Source: Circinella umbellata
Lineage: Eukaryota; Mucoromycota; Mucoromycetes; Mucorales; Lichtheimiaceae
Assembly (NCBI GenBank): GCA_025093555.1
Contig: JAIWNF010000041.1
Coordinates: 248,001-312,000, forward strand
Direction of reading: 5' to 3'
Length of the DNA stretch: 64,000 nt
Both the position numbers and the translations under genes were made by a program. The notes beneath the pieces are model-generated. The model had not been told where the DNA came from and made no database searches. It saw only the letters and a list, made by a program, of their open reading frames with translations. Shown piece after piece: positions 1 through 59,933 of this stretch. How positions within the stretch are numbered: the stretch's first letter is position 1; every line of letters starts with the position of its first letter.

Positions 1-344
1 GTTTGTAATAATAGGTAAGTTAAAACAAGAGTTAGATTATTAATTATCTTAATAAAGTTTAATATTCAGCTAATACATATATTTGGATTAAATATAGGGC
101 TAAAACTTCGTATTATTGTCATGGATAATCTAGGAGATTAATCTGATATATTATGATAATAAGATTTTTAATGTAATTAAGAAATCTATTATTTTATAAT
201 ATATGATAAAATAAAAATTTAATAAAATTAAAATTCTTAATTATAGCTACTGGTTTATATTGATAATACCCAGTTGAGATGATAAAATTCAATGAATTTT
301 ATATACACATCACAACTAAAACAATCCTTAAAAGAAAACAACTT
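1..344. other. AT-rich intergenic, nothing recognised
   Basis: Very AT-rich DNA with stop codons in all frames. No gene, RNA or repeat that I can name. Confidence 0.5.
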
Positions 345-753
345 ATTATCCTCTTCTTCTTCTTTCCTGCAAAACTTCAAGCAGAGGGTATGTGAGTCCT
401 AGGGGTATAAAAAATTATAATCTCTTACAGAAATTGACACTTTTCTATTAGATACACTAATGAGTTAAACTAACTAGAATAAATAAATTTAAATTTAAAT
501 TTAAATTAATAATTTATTTTATTTATGAATTAGAAAAATAAATTAGATATACCAATTATTTGAAATAATTATTTAGAATAACCAGAATAAATAAATAAAT
601 TTAAATTTAAACTTAAATTAATAATTTATTCTATTTATTAATTAGAGTAAATATAAATTTCTATAAGAAATTGTAATTTTTTTACACCCCTAGGACTTGC
701 ACGCCCTCTACTTGAGATTTCGCAGGAGAGGAGGAAGAGAAAGAAGAGTTATT
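345..753. mobile_element. Fold-back / MITE-like element with ~100-bp terminal inverted repeats
   Basis: The left end (about 345-445) reads a pyrimidine-rich CTTCTTCTTT tract, then TTTCCTGC, AAGCAGAGGG, AGTCCTAGGGGT and AAAAATTATAATCTCTTA. The right end (about 660-753) carries the reverse complement of the same blocks in mirror order (CACCCCTAGGACT, GCCCTCTACTTGAGATTTCGCAGGAG, GGAAGAGAAAGAAG), with scattered mismatches. The middle is a further AT-rich inverted/direct repeat of TAAATTTAAATTTAAA blocks (about 478-645). No coding capacity. The structure fits a short non-autonomous fold-back DNA element. No target-site duplication could be fixed because the flanks are too AT-rich. Confidence 0.65.
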
Positions 754-1134
754 TTTTATTTATAGAAATGACATAGTGGGGCATGTCATAATTATATTAT
801 AATTCTCTACTGAAGCATATGTTGTCATAACAAAGAGTCTCGGTATATAGAATTGATATGATTTATGTAAAGAAAATAGAATAAAGGGTATAAATAACTT
901 AATAATTATAGATAAATAGTATGTAGGAGTTCTATTATTCAGGAATTGTACATCTGAATCCACAAAAAGAGAAGTCTTAATAAAATGTTTAAATGAAAAT
1001 CAAATGAAAGAATTTTATTTATAAAGGATAATTTATTTAAAATACAAGACAAAGTTAGAGATAAAACTTAAAGTAAAAGAGAACTGAAGAAAAGAAATTT
1101 GAGAGTGAAAAAGGTTGAGTATTTATACTATTTG
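754..1134. other. AT-rich intergenic, nothing recognised
   Basis: Open frames here are short and biased in composition, and I see no coding signature. Confidence 0.4.
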
Positions 1135-1211
1135 CTTTTATAAAATAGTCAATAGCTTTTATGAAAATAGTCAATAGCTTTTATGAAAATAATCAATAGC
1201 TTTAGTAAAAG
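1135..1211. repeat. Short tandem repeat, ~22-bp unit, ~3.5 copies
   Basis: The unit CTTTTATGAAAATAGTCAATAG occurs in tandem from 1135, with small changes in the first and third copies and a partial fourth. No function is evident. Confidence 0.8.
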
Positions 1212-2761
1212 ATTGTGATTGCTCTTATAAAAAGCAGCAATTGTGAAAAGAATTAAAAGTGGGATCCAATAAAATGGCGTAATGGGTTTTTATACTATAA
1301 AAAGAGTATTTGATGATAACATGTGACTATAATCAATAATACTAATAATAATGAAAGAGATAAAAATAATAATAATATTATTTATAATGGGGATTATATT
1401 AATATTGAAGATTATATATGAGGAAAGAGAAAAAAAAAAGGGTAATGATATGCACATTACAGTACATAATAGCCCCTTCAATAGAAATAAATATAAATAA
1501 TTACTTAATTTACGTATTCATTAAATAATTTTTTTATTATATTTCCTGAATTTAATGTACCTCTGTTATATATCTATATTTTTTTTTTCTATTTTTTTTT
1601 TTGTACGTATCTTTTTTTTTATACTTAGAAATAATAGAAGTTATTTCATTTTTTCCCTTTTTTTCTCTTTTTCTTGGAGTATAAATTTTACTATGTTGAG
1701 AACATAGATAATCTGGTTTATTGTTACCAATATTTGTTTTTTTTATGGCACATATATCCTTCATTCTTCACTCTCTTATGGATATAAGTACATACATTAG
1801 AACTAGAATTAAGATACCAGAAATGTTTTGTGTTTGTTTTTTCTATTTTTTCTTTTATGATGGTTCCCATCATTTTTTTCTTTTTTTCTTTTGTTTTACA
1901 TAATACTTCATCTTCAAAGTGTTTTTCCATAACCTCATTTATAATATCTTTAATTGAATAGACCATAGCTTTTGTGCATGTAAGAATCTCTGTGTTCATA
2001 ATAATTATATTTGCATTGTATTATTAGGATTATACTTTTATAATATAAAAAAATTCAATTTTTATTTTATTTTAAAGTTGATAAAATAATTTAAAGTTGC
2101 TACTTTTTTCTGAGTTTCAATTGTAACAACTGGTCTCCTATCTCGATTTCTAGAAATCGAAATAATAATCTCTTTTATTGTTATAGAAGAAGGTGTCTCA
2201 GAAAAATTGAAGATTTTTTGAAGGTATTCTAGGCTTTACATAGTAAACCTTTAACAACTAATAAGTTGTTATTAAGACTTAGCTGGATATCTGAAAGATA
2301 TCAATAAGTCCCCAAAGTACAGACTACAGCAGAAAACCATCTTTTATATGCAACATCAATATACAAGAGTGTATCCAAGTTACTCCTAGCCGCTCTAAAG
2401 CCATCGATGCTAGTCAATATCAAAAAAGAAGATTTTCAGGCAGTAGCCAAGACAAAAAGAATACTCTCCTAGGTTTAACTATATACAAACTAAGAGCAAT
2501 GATGATAATAATAAATATTAGAAAATAAAAATAAAGAAAAATAAAAATATAATATAATATATTAATATTAATTTTAAAGAAATTAGTTTTTTTCTCGCAG
2601 TTAATAATATATTATCAATTGATAATTCTTCTTATATTATATTAGTTATATATAATAGATTTAGTAAATATATTTGCTGAATCTTCTATAAAAATCTTCA
2701 TTAAAAATCAGGTTGTCATATTTAATAATTTTCTTCTTTTAAAAAATCAAATAAAAAAAGC
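1212..2761. other. AT-rich intergenic, no supported gene
   Basis: Contains a minus-strand frame (1724-1999) whose first ~38 residues (MNTEILTCTKAMVYSIKDI...) look more protein-like than the lysine-rich remainder. No splice model extends it into a recognisable product, so it is not called as a gene. The rest shows poly-T/poly-A tracts only. Confidence 0.35.
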
Positions 2762-2790
2762 ACCTTATAAGTTTTGATAACTTATAAGGT
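2762..2790. repeat. 12-bp perfect hairpin
   Basis: ACCTTATAAGTT, a 5-nt loop (TTGAT), then AACTTATAAGGT. It lies about 150 bp upstream of the decayed DDE-type transposase, so it may be a relic of that element's end or an isolated hairpin. Confidence 0.6.
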
Positions 2791-2943
2791 TTAGGATAAT
2801 AAATCTTGCTCTAGATATAATTTTCCATTGCGTTATATCACATTGAAAAAATTAATGTTTTTTCCAAATATGGCTACACAAAAATTTTCTATGCATAAAA
2901 ATAAATTTATATAAATATCAAAAAAGGCTTACTTATGTATTAT

Positions 2944-3975
2944 GGATTTAGAAACACTTTTAAAAACTGAGTATGAAAACATATATGATAATTATTAGGG
3001 TTTATGGGAAATACATATAAATCTAATATAAAAAAATATATCATCATTCAAAAATATATAACCATATAAATATTCAAGGAATAAAGCAATAGATTTATGG
3101 TTTATTAGGAGCTATACCAGTTTTTATTTTTAACTGAGATATGTAGTGAGATAAAGCTGCCATCATCATATTTTAATATTGAAAAGCGTATTTTAATTAT
3201 AGAATTATTATTAAATGGGTTTGTTTGTAAATGATATGAAAGTTTATGAACATGTTGATTCATTCTATAAAGTATATCGAGCATTTTTTATTGAAAAAGA
3301 TAATGTTGAAATGCTAGAAAAATGGTTAGATGAGATGATAACAAATTGTTTTAGTAATTCAATAACTAGACTATTATATAGTAAATTAAATAATCCTGAA
3401 AATTTTCAACATTGTACACCATATATGGATGGTAGACATAATAAAATTATAGTTGAAGATATAGATATTAATAAAGAAAAATGCTCTAAATACACAATTC
3501 GTTTTAGATTCTGCTAGATATATAGTTTATTTATCAAAGTCATTACCATGTAAGTTCAATAATAATGACAATATATTTATAAATAATATTAATTTATGTA
3601 ATTTTTTAAAATATACAGATTGTTTGTGCTTTGATGGTATATATTCTAATGTAATAGAAGAAGTAATTAAAAAGTATAATAATATAGAATTTCAAATTTC
3701 TTATAAACACTTTTGTTATCCATTTAAAAAAAGATTTAGAATATGACTAATTAAATTTTAAAAAGTAATTAGGAGCATATAGAAGTAGTATCGAAACTTT
3801 TTTCGTAAATTTTTCAAGTATATTTAGAAGATATAGTAATAATGCTAATGTATGTGTTACAAAAGATAAAACCTATAATGTACAATTAAAATTAGTAATA
3901 GTACTATATAATATAAATTATTTGAAAAAAAATAATATCAAAAAAAATAATATCAAAGAAAAACCTTATTATAAT
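2944..3975 (+). pseudogene. DDE_4-type transposase, 5' part, decayed and interrupted by the palindrome
   Basis: In three frames one can follow a degraded transposase of the DDE superfamily (DDE_4/Harbinger-like, of the kind abundant in Glomeromycotina). There is a start region at 2944, the block SKLNNPENFQHCTPYMDG (in 3215-3517, with a DG-type first catalytic motif), then after a frameshift CFDGIYSNVIEEV (second acidic motif), then LGAYRSSIETFF and YNVQLKLVIVLYNINYL near 3770-3940. The reading stops exactly at the transposon terminus at 3976. The missing C-terminal part, including a chromodomain, is found inside the palindrome at 9490-9864. Multiple stops and frameshifts make it non-functional. 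A better-preserved relative lies at 33763-35280. The family assignment is recognition without a search. Confidence 0.7.
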
Positions 3976-4006
3976 CACCCCGGAAAATCTTCACTGTAAA
4001 ATTATG
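3976..4006 (+). repeat. Terminal inverted repeat, outer end of copy 1
   Basis: Begins CACCCCGGAAAATCTTCACT. Matches the inner end at 9459-9489 with two mismatches and the outer end of copy 2 (16512-16542) perfectly. Confidence 0.9.
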
Positions 4007-4373
4007 TGGTTGTATTGTAGTTTAAGGTTCTGTAAAAATAAGGTGAAAATTGAAAATCCACGTGAAAAGAGATAACAGAGTTTAACGGAAGTTTACATTA
4101 AAAGAAAGAACGTAAAAAAACACCAGAGAACACAACATGATATAACTCCACTTTACAATAAAGACCATAAACAAAAGTTACATATATCTACGTAATAGTT
4201 TCTTCAAACCAACATCTAAACACTAATATAATAATTGTTTATTTAAAATAATTTTAAAGCGAAATATGATGATACATAGATATGCCATTTTATTTATTCG
4301 AAATTTATCTATATATTTATAAATGATATATATGACCAGGACCGATATCAACAATATGATAATGTACATGTAT

Positions 4374-5568
4374 TTAAAGAATTTTATTAATTACCTCCTG
4401 ATCATTATTAAAGTAATTATCCATTCCAGCGATTCCTGATGGGACAGGTTCCATTGCATGATCTTCATGTCTAGTAGAAGTAATCCGAATAAAAGAGTTA
4501 GTTATCATTCTATTCTGTTTATCTCAACATGTTTCTGTATTATACTGCTTACTCTGTTTCTGATCCCCAATGTTCATTGATATTTCTAATGTTGTAATAG
4601 TTAATAACATTGCTGATAATTTTAATAAAAAAATAGAAGCATATTTCCAGAATAAAATATTCATATCAATCAAACCTTAATATATTTTGATTAGTATTTG
4701 ATGATAATGTTGAAGAGCTTATGGTTTCTTCGTTATCACCTGTATATTCTTTTTTCACATATTTTCCTTTCAACATATTAGTCCAGCCCTCTTGTAGCAT
4801 ATGGTTTGTAGCCCAATTTCCTACACATTTGCTGTAGTCAACACCAGTAGATTCTTTTACTGCTAATGTAAAAGATTGAATAGCAATTTCTTTTTCGTGA
4901 TAATCAATTTTTTTCCAAGTCCAGTCACTATTAGTATATTCATCATCCAAGGTCTGCAAAGATTCATCACTTTGACCTGGTAACATAGAGTGATTGTTAT
5001 TACTTCTTGTTTCCTCACTCTCTTCCTGTTCAGCACTCTCTGTTTCATCTTCATCCATGTTGGATGGTAATGTCAACAACTGTATTCCAAGGCGTTTGAT
5101 CATTGTTTTTAATGTGTTGACGCGGATAGTGATTGTTCCTTTGTAAAGTGACTCAGCCTTTTGTTCAGACAATGTATTACTAGATGCCTTGATTACTTGT
5201 ATAATATGTTTTTTACGAATTGTAAGAAAATGAGGCTTTCTTTCTCCATTAGATGTAATATAATTCATTGGTGCTCCAATCATGTTTTCAGAAGCAGATT
5301 GCCGTGAGCTTTCATCCGCAGCTACTATTGATGTTGATGTTGAAAAACCTTCAAACAACTTTTCTATCATTATCTTCAGTTCATCCAATGAATTTGACAT
5401 ACTTCTTTGATTCTCTTTCTGAGCTTCATCCATGTTTGAAACAGTTTTTTGAATTTCTTCCATAGTCTCATGCAATATAACAACATCATTGATAGATCTC
5501 AATTGTTGTTTCAGTGCTAAAAATTCATCAGTGGTAGTTTTTGCTTTGACAGGTTTTTTTGGGGGCAT
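4374..5568 (-). CDS. Accessory protein of CACTA-like element, copy 1 (329 aa, two exons)
   Basis: Exon 1 is 5568-4676 and exon 2 is 4470-4374. The donor AAG|GTTTGA and acceptor CTACTAG|ACATG give an in-frame 329-residue protein. Read unspliced, the frame stops after 300 residues. The N-terminus is basic (MPPKKPVKAK), followed by a predicted coiled coil (about residues 15-75, heptad-like, rich in Q/E/M/L). A central part (about 115-165, HFLTIRKKHIIQVI...) could be a small helical DNA-binding region. Next is an acidic linker (DEDETESAEQEESEE) and a C-terminal block with WTWKKIDYHEKEIAIQSF. It is divergent from the transposase across a 179-bp shared promoter. By analogy, CACTA elements encode a second DNA-binding protein (TnpA type), and this is the natural candidate, but I recognise no family and the role is inference. 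An identical copy lies at 14950-16144. Confidence 0.75.
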
Positions 5569-5747
5569 TATAAAAGATGTTTTTATTAAAGGTTGGAAGG
5601 AGAAAGAAACAAAAAAAGGGACAATAATAAAAGGGGATATTTGTGTAACTTTCCGTGTTTTTCTCCTTTTTTTAGGTGTTTATAATTTTACATGTGTAAT
5701 TTTTTTACTCATTTTTTTTATTTTTTAAAAAAAGAATCTAACTGAAG
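5569..5747. promoter_or_regulatory. Bidirectional promoter of CACTA-like copy 1
   Basis: The 179 bp between the divergent start codons contain a long A-rich and T-rich stretch. No TATA element can be assigned with certainty. Mirrored at 14771-14949. Confidence 0.6.
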
Positions 5748-8700
5748 ATGGTTCAGTGTCCATATTGTGGAGATTATTACACACTTGCAAAATTAACAGC
5801 ACATAAACAGGAATGTTTTGAAAATAAGTACAGCAAGTCAGTTTCGGAATCTATTAGAAGCAGATCGGTTGCAAAACGACATAAATCTAATCATTCAAAT
5901 GATGTGATTACGACACCAGAATCTTTAACGATCCCTTCAGGCACAACAACAATACCAATAGAATCAGGAACAACATCGATCGCACCATCTTCTTCTTCTT
6001 TAATCAAACACATGACAGAAAACAGTTTTTCTATTTTACCACCATCACAACAACAGAACAATACAATGATAACGGATTATCTGTCCGATAATAATGAACC
6101 CTATGATGATGGAGATTACTATGACTGTGACGTGATGGATGACGATCCCGTCCAGTTCATATGTACATTGGCAGATCCCGATAAGGATGAGGATAACATC
6201 ATTGACTCCCCCCAAATAAATAATGAGGAAACAAGTGGTGTAACAAACAATATCAACAGTTGCAACAACAACACTAGTGGTCTAATATTCGACCCAAATA
6301 TTACGGAAGAGCATCATATGGGGCTTTCAGAGGAATTCAGTTTAGAACTTTTAAAAATTATAGATGAATTTGTTATACCACGGGCTGCTCACGAACGGCT
6401 CGTAAAGTTGATTAACAACATTGTTACCGCAAGCGAAAGCCAATTCGGTACGAATATATTTTTTAAGCACGTTTATATGTAGTTCCTTGCGTTTCTCATT
6501 TTCTTTCTCCATGATTTAATAGTACCTAATCGACATCAAGATTACTATTTCCTTCATATCTTATCACCTTATCTTACTGAAAAATTGTTAGTGTCTTTGT
6601 ATCCTGTGAAAAAGCTTGAATTTGACATTTGTCCTGACGGTTGCTACCTTTATATATCTGATGATATAACCAGTTGCCCGAATAAAAAATGTGGCAAGCA
6701 GCGATATAGAAATGGTCAACAAAACATTGAAAAAAAAGCTTATGCTACCATGCAATATCTTCCACTCACAGAACAACTTGGAGCATTCATAGCACACAAA
6801 ACAGCTCGTGAGCTACTTAATTACCCTGCAACTTTAAATTATCAAAAAACCGTATTCAAAGACATTTTTGATGGACAAGCAATAAGAGGAATGGAACAAT
6901 GGGGCTCTGATACGATTGCGTTGGCGCTCTTTCAAGATGGATTTCGTCCTTTTATTCATAGTAAAGCTTCCATGACGATTGTCATGCTTGTGATATTAAA
7001 TCTCCCGCCTGAGGAAAGGTAATAACATACAAGAGTGGATTATGTGTTTGATTTCAATACTAATCTGTATTTTATTTTTGCGCTTCTACTAGATATAAAG
7101 AAAAAAACATTATTACAGTATCTATTATTCCAACCACTTCGAAAGGTGGAAATCTCGATTCTTTTCTCTCCCCTCTTTATCAAGAACTGATGAATCTGGA
7201 AACTGAAGGAATGCATATAGTATGCGACGATGGAGTAACAAGAACAATTACTGCACATCTTGTGATTGCATCAGGGGACTGTCCTGGTATAGCATCGGTA
7301 ATTCATCACGGAGGTCACCAATCCAAATTCGGCTGTCGTATATGTTTGATAGCTTCTGAACGCTGCGAAAGCTCACTATCGATCAGTAAAAAAAATGACG
7401 GAAGTAACACGAAAGCTGGTTTTGGTCGATACTATCCTGGATCCATTGAGCTTGATGACGAGAGACAAATAATTGATTACAAAGATGGGGATAAGGTAAT
7501 TTAGCTGGTATTTGAAAATCCCTTTTTTTTATGTTAATGGATTTAATAAATTGCTTTTATATATACAGGACCATAATATTAAGTCACCTTGTCCATTAGC
7601 ATTGTTGAAGTCGTTCACTACAGTATTCAATTTTGGACTTGATGAATTCCACTTATATGGATGCAACATTAGCCCACAACTTTGGGCCATGTTCTCCAAT
7701 CCAATTTTACGCACACCTTTCCTGATGACGAAAGCACAACAGTCTGAAATTAGTGGATCAATCAAAGCATCACAACCAAGGTGGCCGTCAGTATTTGAAA
7801 GTCGGCTGTGTGGTATAGTTGAAATATATATGGTTTATCAGGAATATAATAGTTAGTTAGCAGAAAGTACCCTGCTTTATTCATCTTATTTCTCTATTTT
7901 AGATGTTTTAACGAGAACAAATGATGTGCGAGGAATTGATTATATTGATCTTTTACTTTACGTTATACCAACAATTGTGATCGAACAGCTTCAAAACACC
8001 AACTGTTCAGTAGATGCAATCGATGCCCTGGCAGCTTTGGTAAAAGGATGTAGCATATCGCTTTCGTGGGAAATGAGTGATATAAACGTTAAACAAATTG
8101 AACAGTACGTATCATTTTAATAAAAACATATTTAATGTTAAAACAGATTGGGACATTGTTATCTAACATTATACTTAATTTATATTATTAATAAAAGGTT
8201 TTTTCAACAATGGCATTCATTTGCAAGCTCTGAATTATTTCCAAAAAATCTTTATACTGTTAGCTTTCATTACATTCGACATGTTGCAGATTCAATCAAA
8301 CAAATCGGTCCACTTCGGGTGTATTCAGCAAGTATGGAAAGAATGGTAGGCTTTTATGACAGAAGGATAAAATCAACGCAACATGCAGGTACATCAGCTG
8401 GAAATAAGATGGAGCTTATGGCAGCACAACAATATTATACAAGAACAATAAGAGAATGCTCGGACAAAAATGATTCAAATGAACAATCCAAAAAAATTGT
8501 GTGTTTTGACTCCTCTGGCTCCGGACCAGAACTTTGGGGTCCTCATTTGAAAGAAACAACAACTGACGAATACAAAAGATCATACAACTTAATGCATTAC
8601 TTACGAAACTTCTGGGCCCATGAGAAAGGAATTTCAGCAACTTCACTACCAATACTCAAAAGTAATATTACCATTGGACAACGACTTTTTCTGAATGGTT

Positions 8701-9229
8701 CCACTTATGAATGTGCAGAACTGTCAAAACTTAAAGGATATGGAACGTTTCTTAAGATATCATTACCTGATTACTATACTAAAAAAAAGTCTACCTCTCA
8801 TAGTATTGGTAGTGATAATTCAGCTGAATATAAAACATATTTTGGTGAAGCAATTTTATTCTTTACGCATCGTTATATGAGTATGCATATATTATGATAC
8901 AGATAAAAAAACACTAGATAACGAAGGATTATAAATATCTATGTCACAATTTTCTTTTGTGTTAACTAATTATTCATAACATTTTTTAAGGTCAACATAA
9001 GATGCTTTGCTTGATCTGCTTGGATGAAAATACTGAACTAACAAAATATGGATATCCTGTTGGAAAGACATCATTTGGAACTGGAAAACGATTATTCATA
9101 TGTGATGTCTTATCTATTGAGTGTGCCGTTGGAGTGTTAAAATCACCAATACAACAAAATAAATACTATTACGTCTATAAGAATATGATGAATAACCCAA
9201 TTATTCTTGGAAACACACAGAAAATATAA
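5748..9229 (+). CDS. tnp2-family (CACTA) transposase, copy 1 (988 aa, seven exons)
   Basis: Exons by splice consensus: 5748-6447, 6523-7018, 7093-7495, 7569-7812, 7903-8104, 8198-8880, 8991-9229. The total is 2967 nt, fully in frame, with no stops. Residues 4-23 form a Cys2-His-Cys zinc finger (C-X2-C-X11-H-X3-C), followed by a Ser/Thr/Asp/Asn-rich linker to about residue 230. The catalytic region spans exons 2-4. DGFRPFIHSKASM and LNLPPEERYKEKNI match the tnp2 signature (DGxxPF; NLPPxxRYKxxN), and ASGDCPGIASVI corresponds to the CDLPA-type second acidic motif. FGLDEFHLYG is a candidate for the next conserved block. C-terminal exons match the usual tnp2 tail (YYYVYKNMM). It cuts and pastes the element in the nucleus. 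The first intron junction restores a continuous reading VPNRHQDYYFLH. Identical to the gene at 11289-14770. Confidence 0.87.
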
Positions 9230-9458
9230 ATAAAAGGTTTTTTTCTTACATTTTAGTTAGCTACCGTTTTTTAATGTGATGTATATTTCTGTTGATTCAT
9301 GGTTTTTGATGTTTCTTTTACATTAAGGTACATAAAAAAACATAATTTCACAAAAACATCAATTTACCAAGCCAGTCCATACTAAATTCTGTAATGTTAT
9401 GATGATCGTATGTTGATTCAGGTATATTTATGTTGCCACAGAGAATAACATAAATGGA
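9230..9458. other. Subterminal region of CACTA-like copy 1
   Basis: Non-coding region between the transposase stop and the terminal repeat. In CACTA elements such regions bind the accessory protein. I see no clear short repeat array here. Confidence 0.4.
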
Positions 9459-9489
9459 CATAATTTAACAGTGGAGATTTTCCGGGGTG
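9459..9489 (-). repeat. Terminal inverted repeat, inner end of copy 1
   Basis: Ends ...GATTTTCCGGGGTG at 9489. Imperfect inverse of 3976-4006 (two mismatches). Confidence 0.9.
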
Positions 9490-9864
9490 TAAACTATGGC
9501 TTGAAAATGGACTTTGATTTTTTTAATAATTTTGGAGGATTTAATATAACTGATATTTCAACTTCAGAAACATTATATAAAAAAGAATATATAAATGAGA
9601 TAAAAGATTTACAAGAAGATGCAATTAATAAAATTATAAATGGAAATAATATTACTTTAAATAAAATAAATAAAAATAAAATGCAAATAGATAATGAAAA
9701 TATTAATAATGAAATATATGAAGTACAGTATATTATACAACATAAAAAATTAGATAGTACGTAGATTATATGAATATGAAGTAAAATGGAGAAATAGTAG
9801 TAAAAAATATAATAGCTGGGTACATCAAACAGATTTCAATTCAAAGAAAATTTTAGGGAGTTAA
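9490..9864 (+). pseudogene. C-terminal part of the interrupted DDE-type transposase with chromodomain
   Basis: The reading YGLKMDFDFFNNFGGF continues directly where the 5' half at 3975 breaks off; the related copy has KLWMSDNFDF at that point. It runs through a linker rich in I/N/K/E to a chromodomain. The domain starts YEVQYIIQHKKL, is hit by a +1 frameshift near 9761, and continues LYEYEVKWRNSSKKYNSW, with the conserved V-K-W and N-[ST]-W positions. The stop is at 9862-9864. An open frame begins with GTG inside the terminal repeat, so its apparent start is not real. Mirrored on the minus strand at 10654-11028. Confidence 0.7.
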
Positions 9865-10167
9865 TCATTAATCTAGTGATTATAAAAATTTCTTAAATTT
9901 TTTATAATCTATCATTTTGAATAACACCAAGAGATTAAAATCAAAATATAAAATATTTTTGATTTTCTTGGCATTGAAGTATTAAAATAATAAAAAATAT
10001 CAAAATATCAAAATTTATAAAATTTTGGATATTTTGACATTTATAGAATTTATGGAATTCATGAACACATTAATTTATGATATAAAGAAAAAGAAAAACA
10101 ATTTGTTTTTATTTTTCACTACCATCTAAACTTATTTTAATTAATTATATATATTAAAAAACAAATA
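9865..10167. other. Non-coding tail of the interrupted transposon, left arm
   Basis: AT-rich and paired with 10351-10653. Contains the first arm-to-arm mismatches (9997, 10133, 10152). Confidence 0.6.
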
Positions 10168-10350
10168 TTTATAATATAAATCTTGTTTTTAGAATCTTAT
10201 TCTTTTTTAAAATTTATTTTTAACCCCTTTATTTTTATCACATGTAAATTATCATGTGAAACTAAGGTTCAATTGAACCATAGAAATATTAAATATATTA
10301 CAAAATAAACAAAATAATTTAGGACTGAAAAACAAGAAAATCATTGATTT
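10168..10350. other. Unpaired centre (spacer) of the palindrome
   Basis: 183 bp between the arms. Weak residual symmetry remains (CTTGTTTTT near 10182 against AAAAACAAG near 10328), plus a small local palindrome ACATGTAAATTATCATGT at about 10240. No gene. Confidence 0.7.
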
Positions 10351-10653
10351 TATTTGTTTTTTAATTTATATAATTAATTAAAATTAGTTTAGATGGTAGT
10401 GAAAAATAAAAACAAATTGTTTTTCTTTTTCTTTATATCATAAATTAATGTGTTCATGAATTCCATAAATTCTATAAATGTCAAAATATCCAAAATTTTA
10501 TAAATTTTGATATTTTGATACTTTTTATTATTTTAATACTTCAATGCCAAGAAAATCAAAAATATTTTATATTTTGATTTTAATCTCTTGGTGTTATTCA
10601 AAATGATAGATTATAAAAAATTTAAGAAATTTTTATAATCACTAGATTAATGA

Positions 10654-11028
10654 TTAACTCCCTAAAATTTTCTTTGAATTGAAATCTGTTTGATGTACCC
10701 AGCTATTATATTTTTTACTACTATTTCTCCATTTTACTTCATATTCATATAATCTACGTACTATCTAATTTTTTATGTTGTATAATATACTGTACTTCAT
10801 ATATTTCATTATTAATATTTTCATTATCTATTTGCATTTTATTTTTATTTATTTTATTTAAAGTAATATTATTTCCATTTATAATTTTATTAATTGCATC
10901 TTCTTGTAAATCTTTTATCTCATTTATATATTCTTTTTTATATAATGTTTCTGAAGTTGAAATATCAGTTATATTAAATCCTCCAAAATTATTAAAAAAA
11001 TCAAAGTCCATTTTCAAGCCATAGTTTA
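10654..11028 (-). pseudogene. Duplicated C-terminal chromodomain part of the DDE-type transposase, right arm
   Basis: Exact inverse copy of 9490-9864, including the frameshift in the chromodomain. The shared lesion shows that the decay preceded the duplication, or that the arms have since been homogenised. Confidence 0.7.
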
Positions 11029-11288
11029 CACCCCGGAAAATCTCCACTGTTAAATTATGTCCATTTATGTTATTCTCTGTGGCAACATAAATATACCTGA
11101 ATCAACATACGATCATCATAACATTACAGAATTTAGTATGGACTGGCTTGGTAAATTGATGTTTTTGTGAAATTATGTTTTTTTATGTACCTTAATGTAA
11201 AAGAAACATCAAAAACCATGAATCAACAGAAATATACATCACATTAAAAAACGGTAGCTAACTAAAATGTAAGAAAAAAACCTTTTAT

Positions 11289-14200
11289 TTATATTTTCTG
11301 TGTGTTTCCAAGAATAATTGGGTTATTCATCATATTCTTATAGACGTAATAGTATTTATTTTGTTGTATTGGTGATTTTAACACTCCAACGGCACACTCA
11401 ATAGATAAGACATCACATATGAATAATCGTTTTCCAGTTCCAAATGATGTCTTTCCAACAGGATATCCATATTTTGTTAGTTCAGTATTTTCATCCAAGC
11501 AGATCAAGCAAAGCATCTTATGTTGACCTTAAAAAATGTTATGAATAATTAGTTAACACAAAAGAAAATTGTGACATAGATATTTATAATCCTTCGTTAT
11601 CTAGTGTTTTTTTATCTGTATCATAATATATGCATACTCATATAACGATGCGTAAAGAATAAAATTGCTTCACCAAAATATGTTTTATATTCAGCTGAAT
11701 TATCACTACCAATACTATGAGAGGTAGACTTTTTTTTAGTATAGTAATCAGGTAATGATATCTTAAGAAACGTTCCATATCCTTTAAGTTTTGACAGTTC
11801 TGCACATTCATAAGTGGAACCATTCAGAAAAAGTCGTTGTCCAATGGTAATATTACTTTTGAGTATTGGTAGTGAAGTTGCTGAAATTCCTTTCTCATGG
11901 GCCCAGAAGTTTCGTAAGTAATGCATTAAGTTGTATGATCTTTTGTATTCGTCAGTTGTTGTTTCTTTCAAATGAGGACCCCAAAGTTCTGGTCCGGAGC
12001 CAGAGGAGTCAAAACACACAATTTTTTTGGATTGTTCATTTGAATCATTTTTGTCCGAGCATTCTCTTATTGTTCTTGTATAATATTGTTGTGCTGCCAT
12101 AAGCTCCATCTTATTTCCAGCTGATGTACCTGCATGTTGCGTTGATTTTATCCTTCTGTCATAAAAGCCTACCATTCTTTCCATACTTGCTGAATACACC
12201 CGAAGTGGACCGATTTGTTTGATTGAATCTGCAACATGTCGAATGTAATGAAAGCTAACAGTATAAAGATTTTTTGGAAATAATTCAGAGCTTGCAAATG
12301 AATGCCATTGTTGAAAAAACCTTTTATTAATAATATAAATTAAGTATAATGTTAGATAACAATGTCCCAATCTGTTTTAACATTAAATATGTTTTTATTA
12401 AAATGATACGTACTGTTCAATTTGTTTAACGTTTATATCACTCATTTCCCACGAAAGCGATATGCTACATCCTTTTACCAAAGCTGCCAGGGCATCGATT
12501 GCATCTACTGAACAGTTGGTGTTTTGAAGCTGTTCGATCACAATTGTTGGTATAACGTAAAGTAAAAGATCAATATAATCAATTCCTCGCACATCATTTG
12601 TTCTCGTTAAAACATCTAAAATAGAGAAATAAGATGAATAAAGCAGGGTACTTTCTGCTAACTAACTATTATATTCCTGATAAACCATATATATTTCAAC
12701 TATACCACACAGCCGACTTTCAAATACTGACGGCCACCTTGGTTGTGATGCTTTGATTGATCCACTAATTTCAGACTGTTGTGCTTTCGTCATCAGGAAA
12801 GGTGTGCGTAAAATTGGATTGGAGAACATGGCCCAAAGTTGTGGGCTAATGTTGCATCCATATAAGTGGAATTCATCAAGTCCAAAATTGAATACTGTAG
12901 TGAACGACTTCAACAATGCTAATGGACAAGGTGACTTAATATTATGGTCCTGTATATATAAAAGCAATTTATTAAATCCATTAACATAAAAAAAAGGGAT
13001 TTTCAAATACCAGCTAAATTACCTTATCCCCATCTTTGTAATCAATTATTTGTCTCTCGTCATCAAGCTCAATGGATCCAGGATAGTATCGACCAAAACC
13101 AGCTTTCGTGTTACTTCCGTCATTTTTTTTACTGATCGATAGTGAGCTTTCGCAGCGTTCAGAAGCTATCAAACATATACGACAGCCGAATTTGGATTGG
13201 TGACCTCCGTGATGAATTACCGATGCTATACCAGGACAGTCCCCTGATGCAATCACAAGATGTGCAGTAATTGTTCTTGTTACTCCATCGTCGCATACTA
13301 TATGCATTCCTTCAGTTTCCAGATTCATCAGTTCTTGATAAAGAGGGGAGAGAAAAGAATCGAGATTTCCACCTTTCGAAGTGGTTGGAATAATAGATAC
13401 TGTAATAATGTTTTTTTCTTTATATCTAGTAGAAGCGCAAAAATAAAATACAGATTAGTATTGAAATCAAACACATAATCCACTCTTGTATGTTATTACC
13501 TTTCCTCAGGCGGGAGATTTAATATCACAAGCATGACAATCGTCATGGAAGCTTTACTATGAATAAAAGGACGAAATCCATCTTGAAAGAGCGCCAACGC
13601 AATCGTATCAGAGCCCCATTGTTCCATTCCTCTTATTGCTTGTCCATCAAAAATGTCTTTGAATACGGTTTTTTGATAATTTAAAGTTGCAGGGTAATTA
13701 AGTAGCTCACGAGCTGTTTTGTGTGCTATGAATGCTCCAAGTTGTTCTGTGAGTGGAAGATATTGCATGGTAGCATAAGCTTTTTTTTCAATGTTTTGTT
13801 GACCATTTCTATATCGCTGCTTGCCACATTTTTTATTCGGGCAACTGGTTATATCATCAGATATATAAAGGTAGCAACCGTCAGGACAAATGTCAAATTC
13901 AAGCTTTTTCACAGGATACAAAGACACTAACAATTTTTCAGTAAGATAAGGTGATAAGATATGAAGGAAATAGTAATCTTGATGTCGATTAGGTACTATT
14001 AAATCATGGAGAAAGAAAATGAGAAACGCAAGGAACTACATATAAACGTGCTTAAAAAATATATTCGTACCGAATTGGCTTTCGCTTGCGGTAACAATGT
14101 TGTTAATCAACTTTACGAGCCGTTCGTGAGCAGCCCGTGGTATAACAAATTCATCTATAATTTTTAAAAGTTCTAAACTGAATTCCTCTGAAAGCCCCAT

Positions 14201-14770
14201 ATGATGCTCTTCCGTAATATTTGGGTCGAATATTAGACCACTAGTGTTGTTGTTGCAACTGTTGATATTGTTTGTTACACCACTTGTTTCCTCATTATTT
14301 ATTTGGGGGGAGTCAATGATGTTATCCTCATCCTTATCGGGATCTGCCAATGTACATATGAACTGGACGGGATCGTCATCCATCACGTCACAGTCATAGT
14401 AATCTCCATCATCATAGGGTTCATTATTATCGGACAGATAATCCGTTATCATTGTATTGTTCTGTTGTTGTGATGGTGGTAAAATAGAAAAACTGTTTTC
14501 TGTCATGTGTTTGATTAAAGAAGAAGAAGATGGTGCGATCGATGTTGTTCCTGATTCTATTGGTATTGTTGTTGTGCCTGAAGGGATCGTTAAAGATTCT
14601 GGTGTCGTAATCACATCATTTGAATGATTAGATTTATGTCGTTTTGCAACCGATCTGCTTCTAATAGATTCCGAAACTGACTTGCTGTACTTATTTTCAA
14701 AACATTCCTGTTTATGTGCTGTTAATTTTGCAAGTGTGTAATAATCTCCACAATATGGACACTGAACCAT
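11289..14770 (-). CDS. tnp2-family (CACTA) transposase, copy 2 (988 aa, seven exons)
   Basis: Exons in transcription order: 14770-14071, 13995-13500, 13425-13023, 12949-12706, 12615-12414, 12320-11638, 11527-11289. Translated product identical to that at 5748-9229: zinc finger at residues 4-23, tnp2 core with DGFRPF, LPPEERYKEKN and SGDCPG motifs, no stops or frameshifts. It keeps its own divergent promoter (14771-14949). Since the two copies are indistinguishable, transcript reads cannot be assigned to one copy. Confidence 0.86.
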
Positions 14771-14949
14771 CTTCAGTTAGATTCTTTTTTTAAAAAATAA
14801 AAAAAATGAGTAAAAAAATTACACATGTAAAATTATAAACACCTAAAAAAAGGAGAAAAACACGGAAAGTTACACAAATATCCCCTTTTATTATTGTCCC
14901 TTTTTTTGTTTCTTTCTCCTTCCAACCTTTAATAAAAACATCTTTTATA
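14771..14949. promoter_or_regulatory. Bidirectional promoter of CACTA-like copy 2
   Basis: Mirror image of 5569-5747, between divergent accessory and transposase genes. Confidence 0.6.
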
Positions 14950-16144
14950 ATGCCCCCAAAAAAACCTGTCAAAGCAAAAACTACCACTGATGAATTTTTA
15001 GCACTGAAACAACAATTGAGATCTATCAATGATGTTGTTATATTGCATGAGACTATGGAAGAAATTCAAAAAACTGTTTCAAACATGGATGAAGCTCAGA
15101 AAGAGAATCAAAGAAGTATGTCAAATTCATTGGATGAACTGAAGATAATGATAGAAAAGTTGTTTGAAGGTTTTTCAACATCAACATCAATAGTAGCTGC
15201 GGATGAAAGCTCACGGCAATCTGCTTCTGAAAACATGATTGGAGCACCAATGAATTATATTACATCTAATGGAGAAAGAAAGCCTCATTTTCTTACAATT
15301 CGTAAAAAACATATTATACAAGTAATCAAGGCATCTAGTAATACATTGTCTGAACAAAAGGCTGAGTCACTTTACAAAGGAACAATCACTATCCGCGTCA
15401 ACACATTAAAAACAATGATCAAACGCCTTGGAATACAGTTGTTGACATTACCATCCAACATGGATGAAGATGAAACAGAGAGTGCTGAACAGGAAGAGAG
15501 TGAGGAAACAAGAAGTAATAACAATCACTCTATGTTACCAGGTCAAAGTGATGAATCTTTGCAGACCTTGGATGATGAATATACTAATAGTGACTGGACT
15601 TGGAAAAAAATTGATTATCACGAAAAAGAAATTGCTATTCAATCTTTTACATTAGCAGTAAAAGAATCTACTGGTGTTGACTACAGCAAATGTGTAGGAA
15701 ATTGGGCTACAAACCATATGCTACAAGAGGGCTGGACTAATATGTTGAAAGGAAAATATGTGAAAAAAGAATATACAGGTGATAACGAAGAAACCATAAG
15801 CTCTTCAACATTATCATCAAATACTAATCAAAATATATTAAGGTTTGATTGATATGAATATTTTATTCTGGAAATATGCTTCTATTTTTTTATTAAAATT
15901 ATCAGCAATGTTATTAACTATTACAACATTAGAAATATCAATGAACATTGGGGATCAGAAACAGAGTAAGCAGTATAATACAGAAACATGTTGAGATAAA
16001 CAGAATAGAATGATAACTAACTCTTTTATTCGGATTACTTCTACTAGACATGAAGATCATGCAATGGAACCTGTCCCATCAGGAATCGCTGGAATGGATA
16101 ATTACTTTAATAATGATCAGGAGGTAATTAATAAAATTCTTTAA
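14950..16144 (+). CDS. Accessory protein of CACTA-like element, copy 2 (329 aa, two exons)
   Basis: Exon 1 is 14950-15842, intron 15843-16047, exon 2 is 16048-16144. Identical in translation to 4374-5568: basic N-terminus, coiled coil, acidic linker, and a C-terminal exon beginning HEDHAMEPVPSG. If the intron is retained, the frame ends at 15852 after 300 residues. Candidate TnpA-like DNA-binding partner of the transposase, inferred from position only. Confidence 0.75.
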
Positions 16145-16511
16145 ATACATGTACATTATCATATTGTTGATATCGGTCCTGGTCATATATATCATTTATA
16201 AATATATAGATAAATTTCGAATAAATAAAATGGCATATCTATGTATCATCATATTTCGCTTTAAAATTATTTTAAATAAACAATTATTATATTAGTGTTT
16301 AGATGTTGGTTTGAAGAAACTATTACGTAGATATATGTAACTTTTGTTTATGGTCTTTATTGTAAAGTGGAGTTATATCATGTTGTGTTCTCTGGTGTTT
16401 TTTTACGTTCTTTCTTTTAATGTAAACTTCCGTTAAACTCTGTTATCTCTTTTCACGTGGATTTTCAATTTTCACCTTATTTTTACAGAACCTTAAACTA
16501 CAATACAACCA

Positions 16512-16542
16512 CATAATTTTACAGTGAAGATTTTCCGGGGTG
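16512..16542 (-). repeat. Terminal inverted repeat, outer end of copy 2 and right limit of palindrome
   Basis: Ends AGATTTTCCGGGGTG. Perfect inverse of 3976-4006. The next base (T16543) already fails to pair with T3975. Confidence 0.9.
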
Positions 16543-16623
16543 TATTTTTCTTACAGATTCCATTTAAAGCATCACATTTTTTTGATCCTATCATTTAACT
16601 TACCTTTTTAATTACTTATTTAT

Positions 16624-18491
16624 AGAATGCCTAAAAGAAATCGTTCAGAAATTGATCAACCTGAATAAATAAAAACTGGTGGTAGCAATCAGAAAAATAT
16701 TATTATCAATCAAGAAGATGAAGAAGTTCAGTAGGAGATTTACCAGTCTTTGACCACTATTAGAAACTCTCTGGTGTGAAAATCAACAAGTGAAATAAAA
16801 GATGATTTTCCAACTGAAAAACTTTAACAATCTTGCTCCACGGCTTCCAAGAAAGATATAAGTAACATTCAAGAACAAGTTCAATTAAGTGAAGCAGCTT
16901 CATATCAAGTAACTATTGATAATTGCAATAATATAATTATAATAATAAAGAAATAAGTCATGTATATTGACTATTGCTTACTAACTATCATTTGCTCTTA
17001 GTTTTTTGAAACGGACGATGTAATACTTCCAGACTCTTTATTATCCATTGGAACAGCTATCAAAAGGGCGTGTTTAAGAAACTATGGTAAATACGCTGCA
17101 TTACAAGAAAAAGAAAGAAATATCATAGAGTAAGTGTTGACAAAATATATGAACTATTGTTTATAAGAATATACTGTCAACAATAATTACTTTCTTTTTT
17201 TATTTTCTTTGTATTTAGCTTAGGAGCCAATTTAATTTATGATACCGCGAAAGGAAATTGTATTCAATAGGATTTGTTTGATATTGATCAATGGAGATAG
17301 ACTTATAATTGATATCAGCCTTGGTTTATGATTCTGAGTGTGTTCTTGATTATGATGATGATGTTCATATGAAAGTGGAAGAAATAGAAAAGGAATTCAT
17401 TTGATTTCCTTGGTTTCCACTTACCCAAGACAAGTAGTAATATATTATACACAAGGATTTCCAGACGTGATGTAGGTGCTGGTCATGGTTTTGCTAAGAA
17501 AGAAGAATTTAAGCAAAAAGGTGTTGAATCCATTTTATTTGATTTTTATTCTGAATAGTAAGTATTATAGAATAATATAATTGAGGACAGAGAAAATTCG
17601 TTATGGGTATTCATATCTAATTAATGAATCTTAAAGTGTTAAAGTGCTTCAATCTTGACTAAAATTGTTCAGACGTGACTTGGATATTACTGAAGGTGAT
17701 TGGACCGTTAAAGTATGGGCACCTATGTTAGAAAATGTTATAAGGGATGATGAAGATTTATGTCTTAGATGATAAGTATTGAATTATGATGTGATTATAT
17801 TGTATATTATCTCAATTATATCATGTAATTATTATTGGTAATGACACTGGGTATTAATGTAGGGTGAAAGCATCAGTGATTGCTCCAAGGTAGTAGAAGG
17901 TCAAATCAGTTTCAAAGTAGATGTACAGTAAGAGTCGTTCGTAATAATTATGGTGTGCAGAAAAGTAAACGAGAATCAGATATGGGAAATAGAGAGTTGG
18001 GCAAGGCACACCCCTCTATTAGTAAAATTGCTAATGACAAAGCAAAATTATATATTGAAAGCAAATGTGTAGTTGATAAATTGATTGCTGAAATTCTGGG
18101 TAGTATTCATTTAAGTGCTCCACAATACAACTTGCAGGTATTATGGCTGAACTTGCTGCTCAGTAGTATATATTATAATATTATGTTCAATACAATCCTA
18201 ACAACTGATGGGTGTATAATAGGTTTGGAAGCAAAATTATACTCTTTAAAGCTTGAAGAAGATGGCGTGTATGTTGGTGTATTAGAAGATCAATGTACCC
18301 TTCCAACTACTGCGAGTAACCTCCGTCAATTGCAAGATACTTACAAACTACTCCAAAAATTTTATCAAGCAACAAAGAAAATAGCCGATGAATTGAACAA
18401 AAAAGGAGGTGATCAAAACGCTGTGAATATACTTCGTCCTACCTGGATCCCCCCAAAAAAACTTACACATATTAAACCTCTTCCTGTCTAG
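16624..18491 (+). pseudogene. Decayed multi-exon gene of an unknown expanded family (copy 1)
   Basis: Begins MPKRNRSEIDQPE followed by an in-frame TAA. Exon-like blocks separated by GT-AG introns can be followed: KKDISNIQEQVQLSEAASYQ (to 16909), FFETDDVILPDSLLSIGTAIKRAC (from 17004), DWTVKVWAPMLENVI (about 17700), GESISDCSKVVEGQISFKV (about 17862), and a long C-terminal block 17956-18491 with KAHPSISKIANDKAKLY and LEAKLYSLKLEEDGVYVG. At least five in-frame stops and several frame changes disable it. The block order matches other fragments in this window (32224-33473, 36390-37317, 45000-46224). I do not know the function. Such families are common as hypothetical proteins in Mucoromycota. It abuts the palindrome. 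Confidence 0.6.
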
Positions 18492-18654
18492 CTATTTTCA
18501 TAAATTTATCCTTCTTCTACATTCATCCCTTCAAAGTCACAATTTTTTTCTCAAAACTTTTATGACATGTACATATGCTCCCAAAAAACTGTAAAAACCT
18601 AAAATAATGTATAATACTTTATTCAATTGTATACCCAGGTATATCAAAAATACA

Positions 18655-26520: not shown

Positions 26521-28251
26521 CTAGTGAATTTTAAACGTTTGTTCTTGTAGTGCAACATCATCCAAAAAATCGCGGCGCATGTTTCTTTCTTCTACTCTGC
26601 ACATACCAATTGCCTTGTAGTAATCCCCTTCCTTTTTGACAACAGGGTAGTATATAATGCATTCCGAGGTAGACGTACAAAACGGTATTCCAGCAAGTAG
26701 CGCATATTGAGCAGAATCTTCAAGAGGTTCTGTCAAACTATCAAAATAAAAACACGGCATAACATTCCTCCGATCGGTGGTCCATAGAAGGTTCGTTTTT
26801 TTGATCGGCATAAAATGCGATAACTCATAAAGTTCTTTTGCTATACGCTCATAATCTGTAGAATCTTGTTTTTGCGCTTTCGCCGTCTCGATCGATATGA
26901 CCTTTTTATTGGTCGAACCTTGTGGCTGGAAGAGAAGTACAAGGGACCAATAATGATCGTTATTGTTTTCAGGAAAAGGTGGCAGCATCTTCTTGATAGC
27001 CTCAAGGTCTAACTTTTCAGTATGACGTTGACCATTTGTCATTGCAAAACATGTGACTTGTAAAACGCTTTCCTTCACAGTGTATTTTTTAAAAGGTGTT
27101 TTCCAAATATCGTACCTGAAATGTTCCCCATTAACACCTGTCCAAGATGGTAAATTGTATTCTTGAATGGGTACACTATATTCTGTCTCGCTTGTGTTAT
27201 TGCCTTCAGTGCTGTAGCTGGTTATTGCTTTACACATGACTTTGTATTCTTTATGTGGACCAAAAAACAGAATAGCAAGATCCTTTTTCGCGAGAAGACC
27301 ATAGAATTGAATCATCAATTTGTGAATATCTTTCTTGTAATCAATTTTAATATGTTTCATCACATCAGGAAAAATGCTAGCAAGTGCAAATACACGGTCG
27401 TGCTTTTTGGTGCTCGAGCGTGAGTGAGCATAATGTAATAGAGTGGGAATGTATTCAAAATTTTCAGAGAAAATAGTAGAATAGCATCTTTTCATATCAT
27501 TTTTCCAACAATGAATTCTATTGCCGATCAAAATTATCTCTGATGACAGTATTGTTTCTTCCAAAGTCCACATACGTTTCATCCATTGAGCTCCTAGAAG
27601 AGAGTTTGGAATACTGTCTTTCCTTTCGCCCGAAAATTCAGCGGACCGTTCCAATACCTCAGCAGTCAATTCAGGTACCAATGCTATTGTATAAGATGGA
27701 TTCTTATATATTTCATGCATTTGACGTATGCCACGGCGTTTTTCCTTCTTGTTGTTTTGATTGATGCACATTTGATCATACCAAATATACTTGATACCAA
27801 AATCTTTGCATATTTCTTGAATTAGTCCTTTAAATGTGACAAACTTGACTTTGCCTGGAATTCGTTTTCGATCTCTCAATATTGATCGTAATCTGATCCT
27901 GCCTGGATACACGATCTTGTGTTTGCCTTGATCATGTCGCTCCATATTTCCGGTGGTTTTATTCTTTTTTATTTCGCCTGATTGGTTCCATGAATAAGAT
28001 AATGCACAATATCCTTTTTTTACTTTGGACCCTTTTACCACTTTCATGTTAGATGTACGCACCAGGCGACGAGGCATAAAATTTGGTTTTGGTAGTGGTG
28101 ATGGCACCTTTTTGGGTGGTAGGGCAGAGTTATAATAACCACATCTCAATGTCGACGTGTGAAAAATATCTTCATTTAATCCAACATGCTTTAAGAATCT
28201 TTTAATTTTAGCATCGATATGTTGTGTCTTTGTATATGTGATATACGTCAT
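26521..28251 (-). CDS. HET-domain protein A (576 aa)
   Basis: Single coding exon from ATG 28251. HET (heterokaryon-incompatibility) proteins act in fungal non-self recognition and trigger cell death in Ascomycota; the domain is distantly related to TIR domains. The three HET blocks are clear: GYCALSYSWNQSGE (80-93), IKYIWYDQMCINQNNKKEK (153-171) and QWMKRMWTLEE (222-232). They are followed by the RDKVxAL-like KKHDRVFALASIFPDV (about 282-297) and LPSWTGVNGEH (367-377), equivalent to the PSWxPDW region of Pezizomycotina members. The protein begins MTYITYTKTQ and ends EEQTFKIH-like (LQEQTFKIH), shared by all paralogues here. The segment between motifs 2 and 3 (about 196-220) is hypervariable. 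No effector-type repeat or membrane segment is seen. Function in this lineage is unknown. Confidence 0.9.
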   Translation of the reverse strand: MTYITYTKTQHIDAKIKRFLKHVGLNEDIFHTSTLRCGYYNSALPPKKVPSPLPKPNFMPRRLVRTSNMKVVKGSKVKKGYCALSYSWNQSGEIKKNKTTGNMERHDQGKHKIVYPGRIRLRSILRDRKRIPGKVKFVTFKGLIQEICKDFGIKYIWYDQMCINQNNKKEKRRGIRQMHEIYKNPSYTIALVPELTAEVLERSAEFSGERKDSIPNSLLGAQWMKRMWTLEETILSSEIILIGNRIHCWKNDMKRCYSTIFSENFEYIPTLLHYAHSRSSTKKHDRVFALASIFPDVMKHIKIDYKKDIHKLMIQFYGLLAKKDLAILFFGPHKEYKVMCKAITSYSTEGNNTSETEYSVPIQEYNLPSWTGVNGEHFRYDIWKTPFKKYTVKESVLQVTCFAMTNGQRHTEKLDLEAIKKMLPPFPENNNDHYWSLVLLFQPQGSTNKKVISIETAKAQKQDSTDYERIAKELYELSHFMPIKKTNLLWTTDRRNVMPCFYFDSLTEPLEDSAQYALLAGIPFCTSTSECIIYYPVVKKEGDYYKAIGMCRVEERNMRRDFLDDVALQEQTFKIH

Positions 28252-28257
28252 TTTTTT

Positions 28258-28355
28258 CTGCTTTAAACATAATGAATTTGTTAGTACGTCAATCAGTTTT
28301 TTTTTTATTTGGTATATCAGAGACTTAATATATAATAACTAATATAATAACTTAC
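28258..28355 (-). other. Predicted 5'-UTR intron of HET gene A
   Basis: Donor GTAAGTTATT at 28355 and acceptor TTTAAAGCAG ending at 28258, 7 nt before the start codon. The same intron, at the same place, is seen in genes B, C and D. Confidence 0.7.
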
Positions 28356-33762: not shown

Positions 33763-34305
33763 CTATATCTTTTCATTTACCCATGTATTATCTTTATCAT
33801 CATAACCTTGCCACTTTACTAAAAATAAATATTCATTATTAACATCTAATTTATGTTCAAGTATTGTTTCAATTTCATAAAAATGATTGTTTTTATTTAA
33901 ATCTCTAACCAAGTTAATATTTACTTTTCTTGCACTTTTACCTTTTCTTCTTCTCTTTTTATTTATATCAATATATTGTGGAAATTCTACATCTTCTCCT
34001 TCTTCATCTATATTATCTTCTTCATTATCATCTACTAACATAGCATCTTTATTACCAATTTCTAAATCACCCAATTCTTTTTGTAATTCTGTCATAATTT
34101 TAACTTTTTCTAATTCTTTAGTTTCATTATATAATACAATATCTACTAATTTATGTTCTGTTCGAAAATCAAAATTATCTGACATCCATAATTTATGATG
34201 ATTTTGTGTAATAATGTTAAATGTTTCTGTAAATAACTTTATATTTTTTAATAAGAATGAAACTTTAATTTGTAAATTAACATTTTTAAAATTATCTGTC
34301 TTCAA
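33763..34305 (-). CDS. C-terminal part of DDE_4-type transposase with chromodomain (copy 2)
   Basis: Open for 180 residues. It starts inside the transposase with LQIKVSFLLKNIKLF and HHKLWMSDNFDF, which is the usual end of the DDE_4 catalytic domain in this family. It then passes an acidic linker (DDNEEDNIDEEGED) and a basic cluster (KKRRRKGKSARK) before a complete chromodomain, HFYEIETILEHKLDVNNEYLFLVKWQGYDDKDNTWV, whose aromatic-cage and VKW positions are conserved. The chromodomain would target insertion to methylated-histone chromatin (known for chromodomain-bearing retroelements; inferred here). It belongs with the decayed upstream part at 34306-35280. Confidence 0.65.
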   Translation of the reverse strand: MKTDNFKNVNLQIKVSFLLKNIKLFTETFNIITQNHHKLWMSDNFDFRTEHKLVDIVLYNETKELEKVKIMTELQKELGDLEIGNKDAMLVDDNEEDNIDEEGEDVEFPQYIDINKKRRRKGKSARKVNINLVRDLNKNNHFYEIETILEHKLDVNNEYLFLVKWQGYDDKDNTWVNEKI

Positions 34306-42285: not shown

Positions 42286-42292
42286 TCTTTTT

Positions 42293-42373
42293 CTGTTTTA
42301 AGTACAATATAAATTGTTTAATCTATAGCAAACTCTTTGATACTCGCAAAAATTTTATTAGAATAAAACTTAC
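42293..42373 (-). other. Predicted 5'-UTR intron of HET gene B
   Basis: Donor GTAAGTTTTA at 42373, acceptor TTAAAACAG ending at 42293, 7 nt before the ATG. Confidence 0.7.
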
Positions 42374-49066: not shown

Positions 49067-49075
49067 TTCTTGTTT

Positions 49076-59927: not shown

Positions 59928-59933
59928 TGTTTT

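Follow-up and report, generated by a model that had tools for sequence, protein, structure and literature searches.

How does a palindrome of 12.6 kb come to end, on both sides, exactly at the terminus of a transposon? The question is raised by a 64,000-nucleotide stretch of the Circinella umbellata genome (contig JAIWNF010000041.1, positions 248,001 to 312,000), hereafter the window, which is part of contig C147 in an assembly of 50.8 Mb and 210 contigs. We consider it likely that the palindrome is a fold-back inverted duplication seeded by a fold-back repeat at its centre, FB1, and that its outer limit was set by transposase cleavage at the end of a CACTA/EnSpm-like transposon, E. An earlier note had described a near-perfect palindrome whose paired positions sum to 20518, and the count bears this out: between 3976 and 16542, around a 183-bp spacer, only 3 of the 6,192 arm positions (9997, 10133 and 10152, comparing i with 20518-i over 3976-10167) are unpaired. 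Self-BLAST of the window returned one inverted hit of 12.6 kb, 99.3% identical with the spacer included. No inverted pair of at least 500 bp at 90% identity or more was detected within each of the background pieces, which cover ~65 kb outside the palindrome (window 1-3975 and 16543-64000, and loci L032, L042 and L043, the last two overlapping the window and including ~2 and 2.5 kb of E and its inverted copy). The palindrome is real, and a chance origin of arms this long is excluded.

Reading inwards from the left, the palindrome comprises E (3976-9489, plus strand, 5,514 bp), treated here as the original, template copy, then a flank F (9490-9854, plus strand) and FB1 (9855-10663, unstranded), followed by the inverted copies F' (10664-11028, minus strand, defined by the pairing) and E' (11029-16542, minus strand), the latter identical to E across 5,514 bp. 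FB1 is made of two 313-bp arms (9855-10167 and 10351-10663) separated by the spacer (10168-10350). It is a dispersed repeat and itself palindromic. The proposal that one element was duplicated in inverted orientation together with its inner flank is thus supported, although the "0.7 kb of flank" turns out to be composed of F plus one FB1 arm. Pairing breaks at 3975/16543, so that the palindrome ends exactly at the transposon termini; the exact bounding that had been claimed stands, but the termini read CACCCCGG and not CACTA. All three arm mismatches are located within FB1; the central 171 arm positions contain them all, and the 6,021 positions farther out are free of mismatches (Fisher p = 2e-5).

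The flanks give the palindrome a polarity. On the left, L (3465-3975, plus strand) was identified by tblastn as the upstream part of a decayed transposase gene with chromodomain and DDE_Tnp_4 domains, with more N-terminal pieces from ~3121, and F corresponds, in two frames, to the downstream (chromodomain) part of the same gene. Comparison was made with a protein family of 70 members, several of which carry both PF13359 (DDE_Tnp_4) and PF00385 (chromodomain). Residues 2-52, 51-159 and 150-218 of member P0001 align at 3350-3972, on the L side, whereas F is aligned by P0001 residues 274-368 and P0013 residues 233-357, the family covering F piecewise from P0013 residue 233 to P0001 residue 368 or P0003 residue 371. 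At an E-value of 0.01, L was matched by 60 of the 70 proteins and F by 21. Elsewhere in the genome, F was found only as one 74% piece at C189, inside the related gene of locus L046. By contrast, R, the new flank joined to the outer end of E' (16543-17500, with an exact start and an arbitrary far end), matched none of the 70 family proteins over its first 3 kb, and its first 2 kb (16543-18543) matched only itself in the genome search; the R hits of the family proteins are mainly a separate gene copy at ~33-35 kb, matched by all 70. By these alignments, L, E and F are one gene interrupted by E, and L-E-F is the original insertion. Since L and F are consecutive parts of one gene, L is the original flank and the right arm a copy, joined to foreign R.

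FB1 also lies at the centre of other palindromes. A genome search with window positions 9200-11300 gave 228 matches, many of them arms, fragments or both strands of one copy, and 40 of 73 candidate places were scored. We examined 13 FB1 loci: the window, C156:531k, C112:300k, C112:714k, C164:257k, C115:start, C79:707k, C201:15k, C57:787k, C142:255k, C189:521k, C189:19k and C1:639k. At three of them, in the window, C156 and C142, the palindrome extends past FB1 into the flank, while solitary FB1 copies have the same kind of arms, unrelated flanks and no long palindrome. The C156 palindrome (C156:524241-537084) spans ~12.8 kb with arms of ~5.5 kb (99.3-99.8% identity), and that of C142 (C142:253633-259866) spans ~6.2 kb with arms of ~2.2 kb and one-sided insertions of ~1.0 and 0.4 kb. 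Only the centre is common to the three, with two exceptions: C156 and the window share a dispersed repeat, which in the window lies at 1657-1959, beyond the palindrome, and C142 and the window share the chromodomain/DDE gene family. The first 2,001 bases of E had no match at the C156 or C142 palindromes, and parts of the arms of both have relatives elsewhere in the genome, indicating that these arms are not unique sequence. Because two more palindromes are centred on it elsewhere, FB1 looks like a recurrent maker of palindromes.

The C142 palindrome resembles that of the window in two respects. First, in its inner block of 1,188 positions, 37 of the 38 mismatches fall inside FB1, the arms of which also differ by indels; the outermost 75 bp of FB1 and the next ~915 bp of flank together hold a single mismatch (flank 99.9% identical). 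Divergence inside FB1 with identity beyond it would be a signature of fold-back priming, in which old differences within the seed are retained and the flank is copied. Second, the chromodomain/DDE gene reads on beyond the right end as far as about residue 375, but on the left it is cut off near residue 262-268, so that this palindrome too consists of one original and one copied arm.

In the C156 palindrome, one arm carries a 1,591-bp insertion (C156:526175-527765, L058 and adjoining L034) flanked by a 9-bp duplication, GTTTGATCT. Its ends read AGGGTTC/GATCCCTA, and we presume that it may be Mutator-like.

These observations can be ordered into a series of steps. E first inserted into the chromodomain/DDE_Tnp_4 gene, giving L-E-F, as the collinearity shows, and FB1 lay directly beyond F. 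The distal FB1 arm, or the DNA beyond it, would then have broken, and the 3' end left behind would have annealed to the proximal FB1 arm, the 183-bp spacer forming the loop, and primed synthesis in the reverse direction across the remainder of FB1, F and E; the confinement of mismatches to FB1 and the existence of two sibling palindromes argue for this step. By analogy with yeast and human models, the hairpin-capped end would have been replicated into a palindrome. Because the end of the copied arm coincides exactly with the E' terminus, the E transposase would have cut at that point, on the template ahead of copying or else on E' once it had been made, and the free end would have been joined to R. 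Subsequent exchange between the arms may maintain their likeness, as indicated for the siblings and possible in the window. In line with the fold-back model of human inverted duplications, described as having a single-copy spacer with inverted homology at its edge (PMC3907307), the window has a single-copy spacer between inverted copies (183 bp, 10168-10350), bounded by the pre-existing inverted homology of the FB1 arms. In both the window and C142, differences are confined to the annealed seed with identity beyond, and one flank is original and the other foreign. The exact arm end at the terminal repeat, already pointed out in the earlier note, speaks for transposase cleavage: by our own estimate, a copied arm ending by chance somewhere within some kilobases would land on the last base of E' in the order of once in 5,000 to 10,000 cases, which is improbable.

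Several points weigh against this explanation. C156 lacks the seed-divergence signature, with 1 mismatch and 5 gaps in its inner 3,603 positions, FB1 arm included. Ten of the 13 FB1 loci have no long FB1-centred palindrome; four of them (C79, C201, C57 and C189:521k) are half copies or fragments, and L013 (C115:1-2111), at a contig end, holds FB1 pieces in an inverted pair with another centre (482-971/1620-2110, 92.7%). As the loci were picked by search score, they do not give a genome-wide rate of palindromes at FB1. The family matches to F are weak singly, with E-values of 1e-3 to 4e-9, and the first open frame of L046 itself has no significant match to F (E-value 7.4). L|E|F is not a clean 3-bp duplication, L ending in TAAT and F beginning with TAAAC; one may speculate that TAA is duplicated and that an additional T stands at the L|E junction, perhaps a trace of cutting and rejoining. 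For transposase involvement there is a single coincidence, seen at a single locus, and the end at C142 lies inside a gene. Zero mismatches in 6 kb are also compatible with homogenisation.

The sibling palindromes bear directly on this last point. The C156 arm has 13 mismatches in 1,934 positions outside the one-sided insertion versus 1 in 3,603 inside it (p = 1e-5), and the C142 arm has 14 in 627 beyond a one-sided gap of ~40 bp versus 1 in ~990 of the inner flank (p = 1.5e-5). Conversion between arms, limited by heterology, is a likely explanation of both patterns. As the siblings suggest arm-to-arm homogenisation, the identity of the window arms does not date them, and we abandoned dating by arm identity because C156 and C142 are less identical beyond one-sided insertions or gaps. 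The intact arms had been taken to imply recent origin or active homogenisation; the second gains support from C156 and C142, but identical arms need not mean recent ones.

The transposon itself resembles CACTA/EnSpm elements in its tnp2-type transposase, its terminal inverted repeats (TIRs) starting with CAC and a 3-bp target duplication at one copy, and differs from them by termini reading CACCCC in place of CACTA. Its TIRs are 32 bp long and 94% identical, and CACCCCGG, which shares only CAC with the CACTA motif, is present at 6 of 6 ends of three E copies. Besides E and E', a genome search that used the first 2,001 bases of E as query detected one further copy, at C142:524961-530480 (99.7%), which differs from E over its whole length by 11 substitutions and two 3-bp indels and is flanked by the 3-bp target duplication TCC/TCC. 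Members of the CACTA/EnSpm superfamily make target duplications of 2-3 bp, but E itself, between TAAT of L and TAAAC of F, lacks a clean one. The plant CACTA terminus pattern gave three matches, all on other contigs. TIR-like matches at C129 and C206 were rejected as E copies, these loci having no BLAST match to E. The predicted transposase gene lies on the plus strand, with exons at 5748-6447, 6523-7018, 7093-7495, 7569-7851, 7903-8104 and 8147-8897. Removal of five GT-AG introns leaves a 944-codon open frame (5748-8897), the introns having been chosen by hand to keep the frame open and, for intron 4, the last of four fitting donors taken. The spliced frame matches Pfam Transposase_21/tnp2 (PF02992; E-value 6.3e-12, 45.6 bits versus a cut-off of 28.6), and a protein search with it found one weak relative, 31% identical over 15% of the query, among 7,998 candidates scored. 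A second gene, on the minus strand (4666-5568, 300 aa), matched no Pfam family above the cut-off. The description of two intact transposons thus applies at the level of the reading frame only.

The earlier note had suggested transposition by reversed or alternative ends, as described for Ac/Ds-type elements. On this view alternative transposition of E, by reversed ends or between sister chromatids, would have made the inverted duplication directly. Both outer limits are exact element ends, and the sister-chromatid type is said to give flanking inverted duplications (PMC3744419). The same source predicts target duplications shared by the junctions. However, the triplets at the L, F and R junctions (AAT, TAA and TAT) do not agree, so that no target duplication is shared with L or F, even though the copy at C142:524961-530480 has one. 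The centre, moreover, is a dispersed fold-back repeat and not an element end, the two siblings share this centre without matches to the first 2,001 bases of E, and one end of the C142 palindrome falls within a gene, near residue 262-268. We therefore regard alternative transposition as an improbable maker of the palindrome.

Equally improbable is a two-step origin, in which a short FB1 palindrome came first and the second arm acquired E later, through one-sided gene conversion or break-induced copying. The homogenisation suggested by the siblings would suit this order of events, but because pairing stops at the last base of E', the end of the first palindrome must have coincided, by chance, with the exact site of E insertion. 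Less plausible still is that the whole 12.6-kb unit jumped as a macrotransposon into the L/R site by its two identical outer ends. These ends are E termini, and the flanking triplets AAT and TAT agree at 2 of 3 bases (a chance of ~0.2 in this base composition, by our own arithmetic), which falls short of a target duplication around the unit. The collinearity of L and F on one gene places L beside E before the duplication; L being the original insertion site, the unit did not, on this evidence, transpose to its present place. Nor was a second copy of the unit found among the matches to the first 2,001 bases of E or to F. Finally, although long inverted repeats are a known failure mode of assembly, an assembly or library artefact is very unlikely. 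The 183-bp spacer is not palindromic, the arms differ at three positions and the outer flanks are unlike each other; moreover, in the two comparable structures parts of the arms diverge by 0.03-2.2% and insertions are present on one side only, one of them bearing a 9-bp duplication.

If fold-back duplication seeded by FB1 is retained, what kind of repeat is the seed? Foldback-type elements and long-TIR miniature inverted-repeat transposable elements, such as Drosophila FB and Galileo, carry long inverted arms. FB1 likewise has long inverted arms, a short spacer and dispersed copies, its own mobility being only putative. As single-strand DNA, FB1 folds at -337 kcal/mol versus a mean of -75 for shuffled sequences (n = 20; z = -56). 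It had no match in the plasmid collection, and 9400-11100, which includes FB1, had none in Rfam. A related fold-back repeat, FB2, is present at full or nearly full length 48-71 bp from FB1 at four solitary loci (L033, L036, L038 and L040) versus none of the three palindromes, although partial FB2 matches at L035 and L039 limit this distinction. At the four loci, FB1 and FB2 form a two-hairpin unit, and possible 3-bp repeats, ATG and ATT, surround the pairs at L033 and L040, as seen by eye and depending on where the ends are placed. We also considered, and rejected, insertion of FB1 into the centre of an existing palindrome, as the flanks (...TTT/AAA in the window, ...AAT/ATT in C142) show no direct target duplication.

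More tentatively, and with considerable doubt, FB1 may be a dispersed hairpin repeat that seeds palindromes recurrently in a natural genome and, combined with a transposase cut at the far end, provides a birth route for composite fold-back transposons. Breaks would yield inverted copies of any neighbour; where the neighbour is a transposon, the product would be a giant fold-back unit, both outer ends of which could transpose, and arm-to-arm exchange would then keep both transposase genes alike.

The window holds further features outside the palindrome. A nearly complete chromodomain and DDE_Tnp_4 gene (~33769-34839, minus strand), 65% identical to P0003, belongs to the family of the gene broken by E. 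Four related long open frames (26524-28338, 40606-42297, 47345-49114 and 58236-60002, minus strand) are accompanied by a remnant at ~18.7-19.5k, and both tested frames of this cluster have a HET (heterokaryon incompatibility) domain; to our knowledge, an array of such domains is unusual in a Mucorales fungus. An open frame at 38814-39716 has a Helitron_like_N domain.

Fold-back inverted duplication has precedents in repair mutants of yeast, in human constitutional rearrangements and in tumours. Nothing describing such a palindrome appeared among the matches listed from the open-licence literature, judged by titles and the starts of abstracts. Three palindromes built on one dispersed repeat, and decayed to different degrees, would show this process at work in evolution, with steps readable from the sequence: the seed, the copied arm, the end point and later homogenisation. 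They also suggest how transposons may be built into palindromic units, and that arms can look new while being old bears on the dating of palindromes by arm identity.

Among known systems, origin-dependent inverted-repeat amplification (ODIRA) shares short interrupted inverted repeats and a hairpin-capped intermediate, which here is part of the model; it predicts inverted triplications with two palindromic junctions (PMC4689423), whereas the window has one duplication with one centre. Alternative transposition of Ac/Ds, by reversed ends or sister chromatids, likewise yields rearrangements that end at a transposon terminus, but the junctions here have no target-site duplication and the centre no transposon end. 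The closest likeness is to the fold-back duplications of yeast mre11/sae2 mutants and human constitutional cases, the yeast pathway proceeding by foldback priming, a hairpin-capped chromosome and a dicentric (PMC10622511, PMC10164571). Like the palindrome of the window, these duplications have a single-copy spacer with inverted homology at its edges, long arms that are nearly identical, an original arm next to a copied one, and new sequence beyond the copy. By contrast, the seed here is a dispersed fold-back repeat that served at three loci within a single natural fungal genome, the arms are interstitial and only 2-6 kb long, and one of them ends exactly where a transposon does; what is new relative to the known cases is thus the recurrent repeat as seed and the transposon end as limit.

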